64,000 nt of DNA from Cyclobacteriaceae bacterium (lineage in GTDB: Bacteria; Bacteroidota; Bacteroidia; Cytophagales; Cyclobacteriaceae), in NCBI GenBank assembly GCA_026129485.1, contig JAHCHY010000006.1, positions 1 to 64,000 on the forward strand, written 5' to 3'. The notes under the pieces were generated by a model, which saw nothing but the letters and a program-made list of their open reading frames with translations, ran no database searches and had not been told where the DNA came from. The position numbers and the translations under genes are program-made. Shown here piece by piece: positions 57,227-63,665 of the stretch; within the stretch, counting starts at the first letter, position 1, and every line of letters begins with the position of its first letter.

Positions 57227-58099
57227 ATGGGTAAGTATTCTATCAAAGAGCTTGAAAAGCTATCCGGCATAAAAGCCCATACTATTCGCATTTGGGAAAA
57301 AAGGCACAGGTTGGTGAATCCACAACGTACGCAAACCAACATCCGTTATTACTCCGATGATGACCTGAAAAAAATCATCAGTGTTTCTGTGCTCAATAAT
57401 CATGGTGTGAAAATTTCCAGGATTGCAGGGTTAAGCACAGACGAGTTGAACCACCGGGTTTCAGAGTTTAGCGAATCTAAAAACAGCATTGAGATTTACA
57501 TCGATCAGCTGGTATTGGCCATGATCGACATGGAAGAAGAAAAATTCGAAAAGACCCTCGCCAACCTGATTCTGAAGTTCGGCTTCGAAAAAGCAATTGT
57601 TGAAATTGTGTTTCCTTTCCTTGAAAAAATCGGGGTGCTATGGCTCACGAATAATATCACGCCCGCCCAGGAGCATTTTGTTTCCAACATTATCCGCCAG
57701 AAGCTGATCGTAGCCATTGACGGTTTGCCACTGGCGCCCAAAACCGCCACTAAAGTGCTGTTGTTCCTGCCTGAAAATGAGCTGCACGAGCTTGGCCTGC
57801 TATTCTATTATTACCTGGCCCGGCAGGCCGGTATGCGTACGTATTACCTCGGCCAAACCGTTCCTCATAAGGATTTAAGATCAGTGTACGAAGCGCACAA
57901 GCCTGACATCCTGGTAACATCGCTTACCAGCGGACCTTCCCTAAAAAACCTGCCCGGTTACATGGCCCGCCTGGGCAACGATTTTGCCAGCGCCAAAATT
58001 TATATTTCGGGCAGCGCCCTTAAAAAAGCCCGTTTTAACCTTCCTTCCAACATCACTATATTTTCCAACGCACTGACATTCAAGTCGTTGATAGCCTGA
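57227..58099 (+). CDS. CarH-like MerR regulator with B12-binding photosensor domain
   Basis: A 290-residue regulator. Residues 1-70 are a MerR helix-turn-helix (YSIKELEKLSGIKAHTIRIWEKR). Residues about 90-160 form the helical bundle with the upper-face motif Wx9EH: Trp139, Glu149, His150 (W-LTNNITPAQ-EH). Residues about 172-290 are the cobalamin-binding Rossmann domain with ExHxxG: Glu185, His187, Gly190; His187 is the expected lower cobalt ligand. All these residues are those used by light-sensing CarH, which binds DNA as an adenosylcobalamin tetramer in the dark. A small inverted repeat (ATAACT-GAA-AGTTAT, 57214-57228) overlaps its start codon. It is divergent from the helicase and directly precedes the carotenoid operon. 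Confidence 0.9.
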   Translation: MGKYSIKELEKLSGIKAHTIRIWEKRHRLVNPQRTQTNIRYYSDDDLKKIISVSVLNNHGVKISRIAGLSTDELNHRVSEFSESKNSIEIYIDQLVLAMIDMEEEKFEKTLANLILKFGFEKAIVEIVFPFLEKIGVLWLTNNITPAQEHFVSNIIRQKLIVAIDGLPLAPKTATKVLLFLPENELHELGLLFYYYLARQAGMRTYYLGQTVPHKDLRSVYEAHKPDILVTSLTSGPSLKNLPGYMARLGNDFASAKIYISGSALKKARFNLPSNITIFSNALTFKSLIA

Positions 58100-58104
58100 T
58101 TATC

Positions 58105-58136
58105 TTGTTTAATTATAATAAAAATTTATTAAACAA
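58105..58136. promoter_or_regulatory. Operator copy 1, candidate CarH-type site
   Basis: TTGTTTAAT (58105-58113), 14 nt, then ATTAAACAA (58128-58136): a perfect 9-bp inverted repeat starting 5 bp after the regulator stop. It lies upstream of the -33 element of the sigma factor promoter. Confidence 0.75.
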
Positions 58137-58140
58137 TAAT

Positions 58141-58170
58141 TTTGAAAGTCATTCATGGGCTATAATTTTG
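58141..58170 (+). promoter_or_regulatory. Promoter of the sigma factor/carotenoid operon
   Basis: TTTG at 58141-58144, an 18-nt spacer and TAATTTTG at 58163-58170, an exact Bacteroidota housekeeping promoter, 30 bp before the ATG at 58201. Its -7 box overlaps the left half of operator copy 2. Confidence 0.75.
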
Positions 58171-58199
58171 TTTAATAATTCACACAAAAAATTAAACAT
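58168..58199. promoter_or_regulatory. Operator copy 2, candidate CarH-type site
   Basis: TTGTTTAAT (58168-58176), 14 nt, then ATTAAACAT (58191-58199), the same 9-14-9 layout as copy 1 with one mismatch in the last base. It begins 63 bp (six DNA turns) after copy 1, overlaps the -7 box and reaches the start codon, so bound repressor would block RNA polymerase. Confidence 0.75.
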
Positions 58200-58200
58200 T

Positions 58201-58704
58201 ATGACAGCGATAGAATTCAGCAAGCAGGTAGCCATGCTCCGCCCTACGCTCAGAATGTTTACCCGCAGGTTTACAACCGATCGGGACGAGAGCCTTGACC
58301 TCGTTCAGGACACCATCCTGAAAGCATTGACTTACCGCGACAAGTTTCGGGAAGCCACTAACCTGAGGGGCTGGCTGTTCACCATCATGCGTAATACCTA
58401 TATCAACAGTTACCGGAAAAATCAGCGAGCCAAAACCGCGCATGATGATACTAAAGAGCTATTCTACCTTAACGTAGAGGATACACATACCTTTAACAAG
58501 CCTGAGCGCAGCGTGGAGTTTAAAGAAGTCTGGAAAAATGTAAATCAGCTTGCAGACGAATTACTGATTCCTTTCAAAATGCACGCTACCGGTTACAAGT
58601 ACCACGAAATCGCGGAGCATCTGAACATTCCGATCGGTACGGTTAAGAACCGGATATTCCATGCGCGTAAAGAAATCCAGAAAAAACTAACCGGCTACCG
58701 GTAA
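58201..58704 (+). CDS. ECF-type RNA polymerase sigma factor
   Basis: A 167-residue sigma-70 family protein. Region 2 spans about 10-80 (RMFTRRFTTDRDESLDLVQDTILKALTYRDKF, split by the core-binding D..D..Q), and region 4 about 110-165 (KMHATGYKYHEIAEHLNIPIGTVKNRIFHARKEIQKKL), an HTH for -35 recognition. The ATG at 58201 lies at the end of the operator; an in-frame start at 58105 would read through both operators. No anti-sigma gene is adjacent, so control is probably at transcription by the B12 regulator just upstream. crtI starts 26 bp downstream. Confidence 0.92.
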   Translation: MTAIEFSKQVAMLRPTLRMFTRRFTTDRDESLDLVQDTILKALTYRDKFREATNLRGWLFTIMRNTYINSYRKNQRAKTAHDDTKELFYLNVEDTHTFNKPERSVEFKEVWKNVNQLADELLIPFKMHATGYKYHEIAEHLNIPIGTVKNRIFHARKEIQKKLTGYR

Positions 58705-58730: not shown

Positions 58731-60221
58731 ATGAAAAAAATTGCCGTAATAGGTGCCGGGTTTTCAGGGTTAGCAGCCGCAGCCAGTTTGGCGAAGGAAG
58801 GATACCGGGTTACTGTACTGGAAAAGAATAGTTCGCCCGGGGGCAGGGCCCGAAAATTTGAGGCCAGCGGCTTTACTTTTGACATGGGGCCAAGCTGGTA
58901 CTGGATGCCTGATGTGTTTGAAAAGTTCTTCGCGCATTTCAATAAAAAAACTTCCGATTACTATACGTTGGAGCGATTGAGCCCTTCGTATCGCATCTAT
59001 TATGGAAAAGATGATTATCTGGACGTTCCTGCAGGAACAGAAGCAATATGCAGGTTTTTTGATGAGCTGGAGCCGGGAAGCTCCAAAAACCTGATCCGTT
59101 TCCTGGAAGAAGGAAAATACAAGTATGACATTGGCATGGGTGAGCTGGTATATAAGCCCGGGCTTTCATTAGCCGAGTTGATGAATACCAGGCTTTTGAC
59201 CGGTGCTTTTCGTCTGCACGTACTTCAATCTATCTCGAAATACGTGCGTAGCTTTTTTAAACACCCGCGTATTATACAGATGCTGGAGTTCCCGGTTTTG
59301 TTTCTGGGAGCAACTGCACAAAATACACCTGCGCTATACAGCCTGATGAATTACGCTGATATGGCGTTGGGAACGTGGTACCCGCAGGGAGGTATGTTTA
59401 AGGTTATTGAAGGCATGACCGGGCTTGCGCAAGAGCAGGGCGTTTTGTTTGAGTTCAATAGTGAAGTAACAAAATTGAATGTTGCGGATAACGCTGTTCA
59501 CGAAGTTGTAGCTAATGGCCACGCCCGTTCGTTCGATTATGTAGTAGCCAGTGCCGACTATCATTTTGTTGAGCAAAAACTATTACCGCAAAGCCATCGC
59601 AGGTATTCTGAATCTTACTGGCAAAGTCGCGATATGGCTCCTTCCAGCCTCATCTTTTACCTCGGCTTCAATAAAAAGATTGACGGCCTGCTTCATCACA
59701 CTTTGTTTTTTGATCAGGACTTTGGTTTACATGCACGCGAAATTTATAACACCCCGAAATGGCCAACAGCTCCGCAGTTCTACGTTTCCTGCCCATCGCA
59801 AACTGATGCTGCTGTTGCACCAGCCGGGCATGAAAATGTATTTATCCTGATCCCGGTTGCACCCGGGCTGGAAGACAGCGAGGCCACCCGTGAAAGGTAT
59901 TTTCGCATCGTAATGGATCGCCTCGAACACCTGACGGGGCAATCGCTAACGCCTCACATGGTTTTCAAACGCAGCTACGCGCACAAAAATTTCATAGAAG
60001 ATTACCACGCTTTTAAAGGAAATGCCTACGGTCTGGCCAATACGCTTAAACAAACGGCCAATCTTAAGCCCGGCATCGTAAACAAAAAGGTTACGAACCT
60101 GTTCTATACAGGTCAGCTAACCGTTCCGGGGCCGGGTGTTCCGCCTTCACTCATTTCCGGGCAGGTAGTTGCGAGAGAGCTGATAAAACAAGACAGACAT
60201 CAAAATGATTTTCAAATATAA
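58731..60221 (+). CDS. crtI: Phytoene desaturase
   Basis: Converts phytoene to lycopene by successive desaturations with FAD. The 496-residue protein begins with the dinucleotide fold (VIGAGFSGLAAAASLAKEGY, 6-25, GxGxxG) followed by LEKNSSPGGRARKF (about 31-44) and ends with the CrtI-type signature (NLFYTGQLTVPGPGVPPSLISG, about 460-482). Second gene of the light-controlled operon; crtB follows after 52 bp. Confidence 0.95.
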   Translation: MKKIAVIGAGFSGLAAAASLAKEGYRVTVLEKNSSPGGRARKFEASGFTFDMGPSWYWMPDVFEKFFAHFNKKTSDYYTLERLSPSYRIYYGKDDYLDVPAGTEAICRFFDELEPGSSKNLIRFLEEGKYKYDIGMGELVYKPGLSLAELMNTRLLTGAFRLHVLQSISKYVRSFFKHPRIIQMLEFPVLFLGATAQNTPALYSLMNYADMALGTWYPQGGMFKVIEGMTGLAQEQGVLFEFNSEVTKLNVADNAVHEVVANGHARSFDYVVASADYHFVEQKLLPQSHRRYSESYWQSRDMAPSSLIFYLGFNKKIDGLLHHTLFFDQDFGLHAREIYNTPKWPTAPQFYVSCPSQTDAAVAPAGHENVFILIPVAPGLEDSEATRERYFRIVMDRLEHLTGQSLTPHMVFKRSYAHKNFIEDYHAFKGNAYGLANTLKQTANLKPGIVNKKVTNLFYTGQLTVPGPGVPPSLISGQVVARELIKQDRHQNDFQI

Positions 60222-60273: not shown

Positions 60274-61113
60274 ATGAACCGAGCGCTCTTCAATACTGTT
60301 TCTGTTACGTGCAGCAAATTAACTACGCGGGCTTACAGCACTTCTTTTTCAATAGGCATCAGGTGCCTTAAGAAAAAATTACAGGGGCCTGTTTACTCCA
60401 TTTACGGGTTTGTTCGTTTTGCCGATGAGATCGTAGATACATTTCATGAACATGATAAGGCCGCTTTGCTGCAGCGGTTCAGGGAAGATACTTATCGTGC
60501 GCTGGAAGATCGCATCAGCCTTAATCCTATCCTGAACAGCTACCAGGCCACAGCCAACCAGTACAATTTTGAAAAAGAGCTTACCGATCAGTTTTTGAAA
60601 AGTATGGAGATGGACCTGCATCTCAAATCCTATGATCAGAAAGAAATCAAAGAGTATATCCTGGGCTCTGCAGAAGTGGTGGGCCTGATGTGCTTACGGG
60701 TATTCTGCGAAGGTGATGAAGCCGCGTATCAGAAACTGAAGCCGCTGGCCATGAAGCTGGGGTCAGCTTTTCAGAAAGTAAACTTTCTCCGCGACCTGAA
60801 TGCTGATTTTAACAGCATGGGCCGTACGTATTTCCCGGGAATTGACCTTACCCGGTTTGACGAAACAAGCAAAAGCAGGATAGAAGAAGATATTGCTGCT
60901 GATTTTCGTGAAGCTTACATCGGTATAAAACTACTCCCGCGCAATGCCCGCTTTGGTGTGTATGTAGCTTACCTGTACTATCTTGCACTCTTCAAAAAAA
61001 TAAAGAATACCCCCAGCCACATGGTGTTACAAAATCGTATAAGCGTGCGCAACCGGCATAAGCTTTCAATCCTTGCTTATTCATTTGTAAAGCACCAGTT
61101 AAACATGATATGA
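60274..61113 (+). CDS. crtB: Phytoene synthase
   Basis: Condenses two geranylgeranyl diphosphates to phytoene. In the 279-residue protein the first Asp-rich motif is FADEIVD (about 43-49), the second FLRDLNADFNSMGRTYFP (about 171-188), both binding Mg2+-diphosphate. YSTSFSIGIRCL near 20 is the family start. Overlaps idi by 4 bp (ATGA), so translation is coupled. Confidence 0.95.
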   Translation: MNRALFNTVSVTCSKLTTRAYSTSFSIGIRCLKKKLQGPVYSIYGFVRFADEIVDTFHEHDKAALLQRFREDTYRALEDRISLNPILNSYQATANQYNFEKELTDQFLKSMEMDLHLKSYDQKEIKEYILGSAEVVGLMCLRVFCEGDEAAYQKLKPLAMKLGSAFQKVNFLRDLNADFNSMGRTYFPGIDLTRFDETSKSRIEEDIAADFREAYIGIKLLPRNARFGVYVAYLYYLALFKKIKNTPSHMVLQNRISVRNRHKLSILAYSFVKHQLNMI

Positions 61114-61628
61114 TGGAGGAAGTGATTTTAGTGGACGCGCAAGACCGGGAGACCGGCACCATGGAAAAGCTGGAAGCCCACCGGAGGGGGTTGCTGCACC
61201 GTGCTTTTTCAATTTTGATCTTTAACCGCGAAGGCGAACTCATGCTGCAGCAGCGGTCGCTTAACAAATATCACAGCGGAGGCTTGTGGACCAATACGTG
61301 TTGCAGTCATCCGCGCCCGGGCGAAACAGCCATTGAAGCCGGGAAACGAAAGCTGGCGCAGGAGATGGGCTTTGATTGTGATCTCTCCTATTCGCACAAG
61401 TTTATATATAAGGTTGAACTGGATAATGACCTGATTGAACATGAGTGGGATCATGTGCTGGTCGGCTTTTACGATGCCGACCCCATACCGAACCGGGAAG
61501 AAGTCATGGACTGGAAGTTTGTAACGCTTCCTGAAGTACGGGAAGACATCAGGCAAAATCCGCACCTGTACACCCGGTGGTTCAAATTAATACTTGCCCA
61601 ACCTGAATTTGACCAGTTGAAAGTTTGA
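61110..61628 (+). CDS. idi: Isopentenyl-diphosphate delta-isomerase, type I
   Basis: Interconverts IPP and DMAPP, supplying the primer for isoprenoid chains. The 172-residue Nudix-fold enzyme has catalytic Cys in LWTNTCCSHPRPGE (about 56-69), Glu in EHEWDHVL (about 110-117) and the family start LVDAQDRETGTMEKLEAHRRGLLHRAFS. Its presence within the operon raises precursor flow when carotenoids are induced. It overlaps both neighbours by 4 bp. Confidence 0.94.
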   Translation: MMEEVILVDAQDRETGTMEKLEAHRRGLLHRAFSILIFNREGELMLQQRSLNKYHSGGLWTNTCCSHPRPGETAIEAGKRKLAQEMGFDCDLSYSHKFIYKVELDNDLIEHEWDHVLVGFYDADPIPNREEVMDWKFVTLPEVREDIRQNPHLYTRWFKLILAQPEFDQLKV

Positions 61629-62950
61629 ACGTGTTTGATCCCGGTTCCGGCACCTCGCTGATCGATTCTGCAACCACGTTATTCTGGTTCAGAAGAGATC
61701 TGCGCCTGCAGGATAATGCCGGGTTATACCACGCGCTCAAACACCATACGCATGTAATCGGCATCTTTATTTTCGATACCGGGATCCTGGGAAAGCTGGA
61801 AGATAAAGCCGATGCGCGGGTAGAATTTATTCTTCAATCACTAACCTATCTCCAGCAACAACTGGTTGAATTGGGTTCTTCTCTCCTCGTGCTTCACGGC
61901 AAACCGGTTGATATTTATAAAAAATTAAGCCCCAAAGCTATTTATGCCAACCACGATTACGAGCCGTATGCAACCCAGCGTGATGAAGCAATAAGAAAGA
62001 TGCTGGAACAAGGGAATATTGCTTTCAAGACCTTTAAGGACCAGGTAATATTTGAAAAAGAGGAAGTGCTGAAAGATAATGGAAAGCCTTACACGGTGTT
62101 TACCCCGTATAGCCGCAAGTGGAAAGCGCTGCTCAATCCATTTTACATGAAGTCATACCCAACGGAAAAATATTTCAGCTCATTCAAAAAAATAAAGCCG
62201 GCTGCATTACCTGCACTGCACGATATCGGATTCAGGCCCTCGGGTATTTCATTTCCGGGGCGTGTGATCAAACAAACTGTTATAGACCGGTATGATAAGC
62301 AACGTAACTTTCCCGCTGTTGAAGGCACGACAAAGCTGGGCGTTCACCTTCGGTTTGGCACCGTAAGCATTCGCAGGCTTGTACAGGTGGCCCTGAAAAA
62401 AAACGAAGTCTGGCTAAACGAATTGATCTGGCGCGATTTCTACCAGATGATTTTGTGGCACTTTCCTCACGTAGAAACAAAAGCTTTTAAGCCCGCTTAC
62501 GATAATATTGAGTGGCGCAACCATGCAGATGAGTTTAACGCGTGGTGCAACGGCTGCACCGGTTACCCGGTTGTAGATGCCGGTATGCGCGAGCTAAATA
62601 CTACCGGTTTTATGCACAACCGGGTACGTATGATTGTGGCCAGCTTTCTCACCAAGCATTTACTGATTGACTGGCGCTGGGGCGAGGCTTACTTTGCCCA
62701 AAAGCTGCTCGACTTCGATCTGGCTGCCAACAACGGTGGCTGGCAATGGGCTGCAGGTTCGGGTTGCGATGCAGCGCCTTATTTTCGGGTTTTCAATCCC
62801 GAGCTTCAAACCGAAAAATTCGACCCTGAACGAAACTATATCAAACGCTGGGTACCGGAAGCCGGAACCCATGCGTATCCAAAGCCAATTGTTGAACACA
62901 GGTTTGCCCGTAACAGGGCCCTGAAAGCTTATAAAGCAGCTTTAGGCTAA
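61625..62950 (+). CDS. phr: Deoxyribodipyrimidine photolyase (class I)
   Basis: Light-driven repair of UV-induced pyrimidine dimers. The 441-residue protein has the N-terminal antenna-binding fold (LFWFRRDLRLQDNAGLYHAL, about 18-37) and the FAD-binding helical domain (about 220-441) with WRDFYQMILWHFPH, CTGYPVVDAGMREL, TGFMHNRVRMIVASFL, and DLAANNGGWQWAAGSGCDAAPYFRVFNP in separate segments. Start is TTG overlapping the idi stop (TTGA); a GTG two codons later is possible. CPD photolyase is more likely than cryptochrome because the FAD-site and substrate-binding Trp/Met positions look canonical, but this is not proven. Confidence 0.92.
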   Translation: MNVFDPGSGTSLIDSATTLFWFRRDLRLQDNAGLYHALKHHTHVIGIFIFDTGILGKLEDKADARVEFILQSLTYLQQQLVELGSSLLVLHGKPVDIYKKLSPKAIYANHDYEPYATQRDEAIRKMLEQGNIAFKTFKDQVIFEKEEVLKDNGKPYTVFTPYSRKWKALLNPFYMKSYPTEKYFSSFKKIKPAALPALHDIGFRPSGISFPGRVIKQTVIDRYDKQRNFPAVEGTTKLGVHLRFGTVSIRRLVQVALKKNEVWLNELIWRDFYQMILWHFPHVETKAFKPAYDNIEWRNHADEFNAWCNGCTGYPVVDAGMRELNTTGFMHNRVRMIVASFLTKHLLIDWRWGEAYFAQKLLDFDLAANNGGWQWAAGSGCDAAPYFRVFNPELQTEKFDPERNYIKRWVPEAGTHAYPKPIVEHRFARNRALKAYKAALG

Positions 62951-63170: not shown

Positions 63171-63665
63171 ATGGATTGGAAATTAATTCTGCTTTGTTCT
63201 TTCATAACGATCGGGACTTTTCTGTTCTGGGAATTTATTGCCTGGTTCACGCACAAATACATTATGCATGGTTTTTTGTGGGTGTGGCACAAATCGCACC
63301 ACACGGTACACGATCATACGCTGGAAAAAAATGACTGGTTTGCCGTGGTGTTCAGCCTTCCATCAATCGGAATCTTCTACTACTTCAGCTTAGTAAAGTA
63401 CAATCCATATATGCTTGCGGTAGGTCTTGGTATTTTCTGTTACGGATTGTTTTACCTGATCTTCCATGACATTATTGTGCATCAGCGCATCAAATGGCGA
63501 CCGGACAAACGAAGCAGGTATTTGCAGCGTATGATTCATGCGCATTATATTCATCACGCCAAACACACCAAAGAAGATTGCGAAGCATTTGGCTTTTTGT
63601 ATGCCCCTAAAAAATATGAGCCCGGTAAGTTTGTATTTAAGAACAAGCGGCAGGAAACACAGTAG
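63171..63665 (+). CDS. crtZ: Beta-carotene hydroxylase (sterol desaturase superfamily)
   Basis: Adds 3-hydroxyl groups to beta-ionone rings, giving zeaxanthin. A 164-residue membrane di-iron enzyme with His clusters H28-x4-H33 (HKYIMH), H40-x2-HH44 (HKSHH), HDIIVHQ near 104-110 and HYIHHAKH near 124-131, and three to four hydrophobic segments. Length and pattern fit bacterial CrtZ. It lies just after the SRPBCC remnant and before the lycopene cyclase. Confidence 0.9.
   Translation: MDWKLILLCSFITIGTFLFWEFIAWFTHKYIMHGFLWVWHKSHHTVHDHTLEKNDWFAVVFSLPSIGIFYYFSLVKYNPYMLAVGLGIFCYGLFYLIFHDIIVHQRIKWRPDKRSRYLQRMIHAHYIHHAKHTKEDCEAFGFLYAPKKYEPGKFVFKNKRQETQ

Follow-up and report, generated by a model that had tools for sequence, protein, structure and literature searches.

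Two long inverted repeats flank the promoter of a carotenoid and photolyase operon in a member of the Cyclobacteriaceae, and they are very likely bound by the CarH-like B12-dependent regulator encoded beside them. The locus lies within a 64,000-nucleotide stretch of DNA (the window), and its features are collected in Table 1. The repeats, which we term O1 and O2, are conserved in sequence among relatives, occur together with the regulator, adjoin light-related genes in related genomes and overlap the promoter. On the strength of sequence comparison we consider it quite probable that regulator bound to adenosylcobalamin (AdoCbl) occupies both operators and represses the operon in the dark, and is released in the light. 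In the dark, B12-loaded regulator would lie on O1, abutting the −33 element, and on O2, covering the −7 box and the start region, and the occupied operators would exclude RNA polymerase from the promoter of the sigma-crtI-crtB-idi-photolyase genes. Light would cleave the AdoCbl, whereupon the regulator would release the DNA and the carotenoid and photolyase genes would be made. Any statement concerning a tetramer carries less confidence than this picture of dark repression and light release.

Table 1. Features of the operator locus, numbered from the first nucleotide of the window.
Feature	Coordinates	Strand	Description
CarH-like MerR-family regulator, 290 aa	57227..58099	+	MerR HTH, B12-binding cap and B12-binding Rossmann domain
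Operator O1	58105..58136	.	9-14-9 inverted repeat, TTGTTTAAT-N14-ATTAAACAA, just 5' of the −33 element
−33 element TTG	58142..58144	+	From sequence; 5 bp after O1, 18 bp 5' of the −7 element
−7 element TAATTTTG (TAnnTTTG)	58163..58170	+	From sequence; TTG in common with the O2 left arm
Operator O2	58168..58199	.	9-14-9 inverted repeat, TTGTTTAAT-N14-ATTAAACAT, over the presumed transcription start region
ECF sigma factor, first operon gene	58201..58704	+	Pfam Sigma70_r2, Sigma70_r4_2; ATG 1 bp past O2
Phytoene desaturase CrtI (NCBIfam CrtID)	58731..60221	+	NF058655 740 bits, cut-off 640
Phytoene synthase CrtB-like	60274..61113	+	Pfam SQS_PSY 154.9 bits; no NCBIfam cut-off reached
Isopentenyl-diphosphate isomerase Idi	61110..61628	+	NF002995 156 bits, cut-off 127
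DNA photolyase / cryptochrome family protein	61625..62950	+	Pfam FAD_binding_7, DNA_photolyase

The initial annotation had described twin 9-14-9 repeats with a start-to-start distance of 63 bp, and these are exact in the sequence. Its placement of the repeats 5 bp behind the B12/MerR gene is also correct, as the regulator stop codon ends at 58099 and O1 starts at 58105. They do flank the sigma factor promoter; O2 shares its TTG with the −7 box and ends at 58199, and the sigma factor ATG begins at 58201. An earlier copy of TAATTTTG at 58137-58144 lacks a TTG at the usual spacing; the closest one 5' of it is at 58105. Elsewhere in the window, the protein encoded at 63171-63665 looks like a carotene hydroxylase, although no Pfam or NCBIfam model reached the cut-offs applied.

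The regulator contains a MerR-type N-terminal domain (PF13411, MerR_1; 53.8 bits, cut-off 21.6) and the cobalamin-binding four-helix cap (PF02607, B12-binding_2; 39.6 bits, cut-off 23). The Rossmann domain scored 27.7 bits with PF02310 (B12-binding), under its cut-off of 32.1, and its fold matches that of Thermus thermophilus CarH (TtCarH). Sequence matches in the PDB were to the same protein (E about 2e-18), and an AlphaFold model with a mean pLDDT of 90.1 had the TtCarH-DNA complex 5c8e as its best fold match (E 1.1e-15). The cobalamin contacts (Wx9EH, ExH), W139, E149, H150, E185 and H187, are invariant in 99/99 aligned relatives. The protein therefore has the MerR domain, cobalamin domains and contact residues of the broad LitR/CarH family of B12-binding MerR regulators. 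Its score of 94.1 bits with the NCBIfam CarH equivalog NF052513 is far below the cut-off of 400, and for this reason we call it CarH-like. Several conserved residues of the DNA-binding domain, including His18, Ile22, Asn38 and Ile39, are unlike those of Thermus. The genome encodes a cobalamin adenosyltransferase. By regulator protein the closest named relatives are metagenome bins of the Cyclobacteriaceae and Cytophagales, with 80-82% identity.

In Thermus CarH, illumination brings His132 into place as the upper cobalt ligand, generating a bis-His state that stabilizes the light form. At the corresponding position (residue 140 of the window protein) no histidine was found in any of the 99 relatives, which have Gln in 61, Leu in 29 and other residues in 9. 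Light-induced release could therefore differ from that of Thermus CarH, or be weak. The Thermus H132A variant is reported to remain in the majority tetrameric in the light, though an earlier report found disassembly (PMC10442372, available text), so that regulators lacking His132 may release DNA by another route. The position also varies, or lacks histidine, in other light-responsive cobalamin domains (PMC11796333, available text), and His132 is therefore not a defining feature of the broad family.

The comparison set comprised 105 loci containing relatives of the regulator, reduced to 101, of which 98 have enough sequence behind the gene. Paired sites with up to four mismatches are present in 49/101 loci, spaced by 62-64 bp (33 loci), 43/44 bp (9), 54/55 bp (2), 106/107 bp (2), and 32, 111 and 121 bp (one each). 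Two pairs at 74 bp were seen with a weight matrix; this was trained on paired sites and is circular for those, and was used only to note the 74-bp pairs. The six-turn spacing of the initial annotation thus holds in the clade of the window, whereas other clades have spacings of 43-44, 54-55 and 106-107 bp. On the regulator tree the four labeled spacing classes are each compatible with one origin, judged on labeled rows (53/99 are unlabeled), and support for the 62-64-bp class is 91/78.

In the 62-64-bp class TAnnTTTG lies exactly 5 bp before O2 in 27/33 loci; the operator arm thus supplies the TTG that ends the −7 box. Allowing a distance of 17-23 bp, a TTG was found upstream of TAnnTTTG in 21 of these 33 loci (at 18-21 bp) and in 6/9 loci of the 43/44-bp class, nearly all of these TTGs falling within 6 bp after O1 in both classes. 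In the 43/44-bp class the −7 box is located within the O2 spacer in 7/9 loci. O1 therefore stays beside the −33 element, whereas the position of O2 with respect to the −7 element changes by about 20 bp.

These positions bear on whether O1 and O2 act independently or are bridged by one assembly, between which we see the chances as about equal. In the independent variant of our explanation each operator would bind a separate dimer or tetramer without looping, O1 being fixed by the −33 element and O2 by the −7 element or start site, such that the near-integral helical spacing would reflect constraints of the promoter. The constancy of O1 beside the −33 element in both large spacing classes and the shift of O2 are in keeping with this, as is the observation that targets away from carH usually have a single site. 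Against it, helical phasing holds for the six spacing classes of 107 bp or less (p 0.002, with a cut chosen after seeing the data), but over all eight classes the phasing is not significant (p 0.19). The phasing of paired operators is thus suggestive only, and we dropped it as proof of looping.

Behind carH, sites with up to three mismatches are present in 67/98 loci, and two sites in 38/98 (0.6 and 0.0 respectively in shuffled sequences). TGTTTAA-N16-TTAAACA, corresponding to the 9-14-9 spacing, is exact in 49/98 loci; a version one base longer occurs in 6/98 and one with the arms reversed in 0/98. The N14 gap is strongly preferred. Most of the information is held in the arms, and the DNA between O1 and O2 varies among relatives. 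Conservation beside orthologous regulators was the test that the initial annotation had set for its proposal, and it is borne out by the presence of the operator near the target in 73/80 loci. These were scored as sites with up to four mismatches in the 200 bp preceding sigma/crtI; an equally long control stretch from within the target gave 1/80, and the 7/80 target loci with no operator at that threshold were counted as misses. Where the target is more than 300 bp from carH the operator is still present in 7/10 loci. Where no sigma/crtI follows carH, an operator (up to four mismatches) lies behind carH in 1/17 loci, a count that leaves out four loci with less than 300 bp of sequence, one of which has a site. 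Taken together, these target-linked counts indicate that the operator goes with the target promoter and not with carH. Upstream of carH a site with up to three mismatches was found in only 8/101 loci, and general autoregulation of carH was rejected for this reason. In four Sunxiuqinia loci (L084, L087, L094, L109) the closest matches (1-3 mismatches) are located 128-221 bp 5' of the regulator gene and not behind it.

The scarcity of sites upstream of carH might be taken to favor a different light or pigment regulator binding the palindromes, with the CarH-like protein acting elsewhere, and three genomes with no detected CarH-like gene do have the exact motif. We regard this as improbable given the strong co-occurrence of motif and regulator in both class and family, and the identity of the half-site with the published CarH core (see below). 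In a class sample of 295 genomes, with the regulator called at E up to 1e-20 (184 with, 111 without), the exact core is present in 109/184 genomes with the regulator compared with 3/111 without, and the reversed pattern in 4/295. A family sample comprised 98 genomes, in 85 of which the regulator was detected (E up to 0.001) and in 13 not. The exact 8-16-8 core has 99 sites in 56 of these genomes, that is 56/85 with the regulator and 0/13 without, compared with one match for the reversed pattern. These co-occurrence tests treat related genomes as independent, ignoring phylogeny. Regulator-positive genomes lacking the exact motif number 75/184 in the class and 29/85 in the family. With two mismatches allowed in the 9-14-9 pattern, the 85 regulator-positive genomes have 294 motif and 88 reversed matches, and the 13 regulator-negative genomes 19 and 16; the reversed control is not negligible at this threshold.

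A phylum sample of 118 genomes has class members largely in common with the class sample. All 14 motif matches fall within the class, and the reversed pattern occurs in 2. Outside the class the motif was found in 0/89 genomes, of which only one has a regulator-like gene. Within the one phylum covered, conservation beside orthologous genes and co-occurrence across genomes support the view of the initial annotation that the operator is linked to the B12/MerR regulator and belongs to this lineage. One genome of the same genus as the window (G094; estimated 100% complete, 30 contigs) has neither a regulator match (E up to 0.001) nor an exact motif; it has one motif match with two mismatches. This is an apparent loss of the regulator and operator system.

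The operator also precedes other genes in relatives. Among the matches listed, 47 sites lie away from carH (43 with the exact core and 4 with 0-1 mismatch); their genomes are often related, so the neighbor counts are not independent events, and one representative per gene group was confirmed by Pfam. Of these 47 listed sites, 12 adjoin queD/PTPS followed by folE (the queD/PTPS-folE-SDR loci L144, L147, L149, L152, L159, L160, L164, L167, L169, L170, L182 and L185), 11 a fasciclin-type protein (L141, L143, L155, L158, L161, L166, L171, L175, L176, L177 and L179; grouped by BLAST, L141 confirmed by Pfam), 7 a rhodopsin (L145, L146, L148, L153, L165, L168 and L183), 3 a photolyase, 2 a DUF4199 gene, 1 sigma-crtI and 1 crtB, and 10 have no assigned or related neighbor. 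The operator ends 27-29 bp before the start codon in 10/12 queD loci, and these genes are possibly a light-controlled pterin operon. A lycopene-cyclase-like gene lies beyond the rhodopsin in 6 of the 7 loci; L148 has none, and its rhodopsin frame is short. The operator before these genes suggests light control of a light-driven pump together with its retinal precursor. The fasciclin genes are a repeated neighbor of the operator. The two DUF4199-type membrane protein genes each follow a perfect operator, at distances of 5 and 47 bp (L151 and L173; L151 confirmed by Pfam). TAnnTTTG occurs 5 bp before the distal site in 2/12 queD, 3/11 fasciclin, 3/7 rhodopsin and 0/3 photolyase loci. In the window genome no second target was found with up to one mismatch, and queD has no site (the best has 8 mismatches). 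The wide regulon is therefore seen in relatives and not in the window genome.

It might be argued that O1 and O2 act as RNA stem-loops, serving to terminate or attenuate transcription downstream of carH and within the sigma factor leader. Weak hairpins are possible for both (−4.6 and −3.9 kcal/mol), but this folding is ordinary for the composition (z −1.1 and −1.6). Moreover the letters of the arms are conserved, the spacer length is nearly fixed, and the motif adjoins the −33 element and precedes unrelated genes. With such weak folding we dropped the hairpin reading as very improbable.

The pattern is confined to O1 and O2 within the window at up to three mismatches (4 matches over both strands, 0.26 expected), and 0/100 shuffled windows reached four matches. 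In the 4.08-Mb genome no copy with up to one mismatch was found besides O1 and O2, and three matches with two mismatches are all poor palindromes, two of them within open frames of 795 and 588 codons. That the repeats are chance palindromes of intergenic DNA, as the AT-richness of the region might encourage one to think, is scarcely credible in view of the shuffles, the reversed-pattern controls and the conservation.

We then return to binding by the CarH-like regulator. CarH operators of Thermus and Bacillus consist of 11-bp direct repeats in tandem, three or four in number and not all perfect, with core TnnACA (PMC9304148, available text). The arms of our operators match TGTnnA and TnnACA in 94/98 sites each. 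At a distance of 11 bp from the right arm, a second core was found upstream in 0/98 sites and downstream in 2/98, and on either side of the left arm in 1/98; on these counts we rejected tandem 11-bp CarH repeats in or beside the operators. Thus the CarH half-site core is used here in inverted orientation, with cores 24 bp apart by arithmetic. The initial annotation had considered the motif to differ from the short-repeat CarH sites. The layout is indeed unlike them, but the arms are not an unrelated motif, since each is the CarH half-site core TnnACA. The spacer of O2 also contains a TnnACA (TTCACA); this was dropped as a third conserved half-site, being at the same offset in only 5/98 sites.

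Each arm would then be one CarH half-site. With half-sites facing and cores 24 bp apart, a CarH dimer of two-fold symmetry, whether free or part of a tetramer, could place one DNA-binding domain on each arm. The head-to-tail dimer of Thermus CarH contacts repeats 1 and 3 (PMC9304148, available text), which by arithmetic lie 22 bp from each other; a single operator here could thus plausibly be spanned by one dimer.

A more extended reading unites a Bacteroidia-specific CarH code of inverted half-sites gripped by a head-to-tail dimer, release without bis-His ligation, a genome-wide light regulon in many members, and paired operators bridged by one dark-state assembly. The regulon would comprise carotenoids, rhodopsin with its retinal precursor, pterin synthesis, photolyases and fasciclin proteins. 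As a whole this is tentative, and we rather doubt that all its parts are right together. The operator offers a readable marker of probable light-controlled genes in the class Bacteroidia. By this comparison, a single CarH half-site would serve as direct repeats in certain lineages and, inverted with a long spacer, in another, a point relevant to DNA reading by this oligomeric photoreceptor. The absence of His132 in 99/99 proteins means that natural proteins can be used to test how CarH is released in the light without bis-His ligation. Should light control prove true, Bacteroidota genetics would gain a light-responsive, AT-rich operator with its repressor.

The CarH proteins of T. thermophilus and Bacillus megaterium share with this system the MerR domain, the cobalamin contacts W, EH and ExH, the half-site core and the overlap with a promoter. 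The fold comparison was with Thermus CarH, and the operator here lies at a carotenoid operon. Thermus CarH has His132, unlike the regulator here and its relatives. In Streptomyces coelicolor the B12/MerR regulator LitR lies next to LitS, an ECF sigma factor responsible for carotenoid gene expression. Its arrangement of regulator, sigma factor and carotenoid genes resembles that of our locus. The Thermus and Bacillus operators differ in their tandem direct 11-bp repeats, compared with inverted half-sites with cores 24 bp apart here. For CarA/CarH of Myxococcus and Cystobacter a ~55-bp operator at the crt promoter is bound by CarA as two dimers; inverted repeats were proposed first, and later binding and footprinting favored 11-bp direct repeats (PMC9304148, available text).

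The twin TGTACA-N12-TGTACA sites of the Pseudomonas class II LitR proteins are the closest precedent. PplR1 and PmlR2 recognize TGTACA-N12-TGTACA and T(G/A)TACA-N12-TGTA(C/T)A. At one mapped promoter there are two long-spaced bipartite sites, at −35 and between start site and ATG, and in P. putida the light-inducible set includes photolyase, FolE and a cryptochrome-like protein (PMC9758184, available text). Our system is similar in both respects, with two sites per promoter, O1 beside the −33 element and O2 over the −7 element and the predicted start site, and, across relatives, with a comparable gene set. The cores differ, since TGTACA with N12 places them 18 bp apart by arithmetic, whereas O1 and O2 have TGTTTA-N18-TAAACA with a nearly fixed spacer and do not match T(G/A)TACA-N12-TGTA(C/T)A. 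TGTACA is itself palindromic, so that direct and inverted orientations are indistinguishable in class II LitR, while the half-site here is asymmetric. A LOV protein activated by light releases PmlR2, whose binding was unaffected by illumination alone (PMC9758184, available text).

In the openly licensed literature we found no published description of such an operator, or of any CarH operator in the class Bacteroidia, nor any DNA-binding or light-response results for a regulator of this family from Bacteroidota, and the available portions of PMC9304148, PMC8156234, PMC10442372, PMC9758184, PMC11796333 and PMC12627116 describe no CarH operator from Bacteroidota. Twin bipartite operators around a promoter (class II LitR) and the control of crt operons by CarH are already known. 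To the extent of our searches, the new elements are an asymmetric half-site in an inverted, long-spaced layout, the class-wide spread of this layout, the set of genes that it marks and the His132-less regulator.
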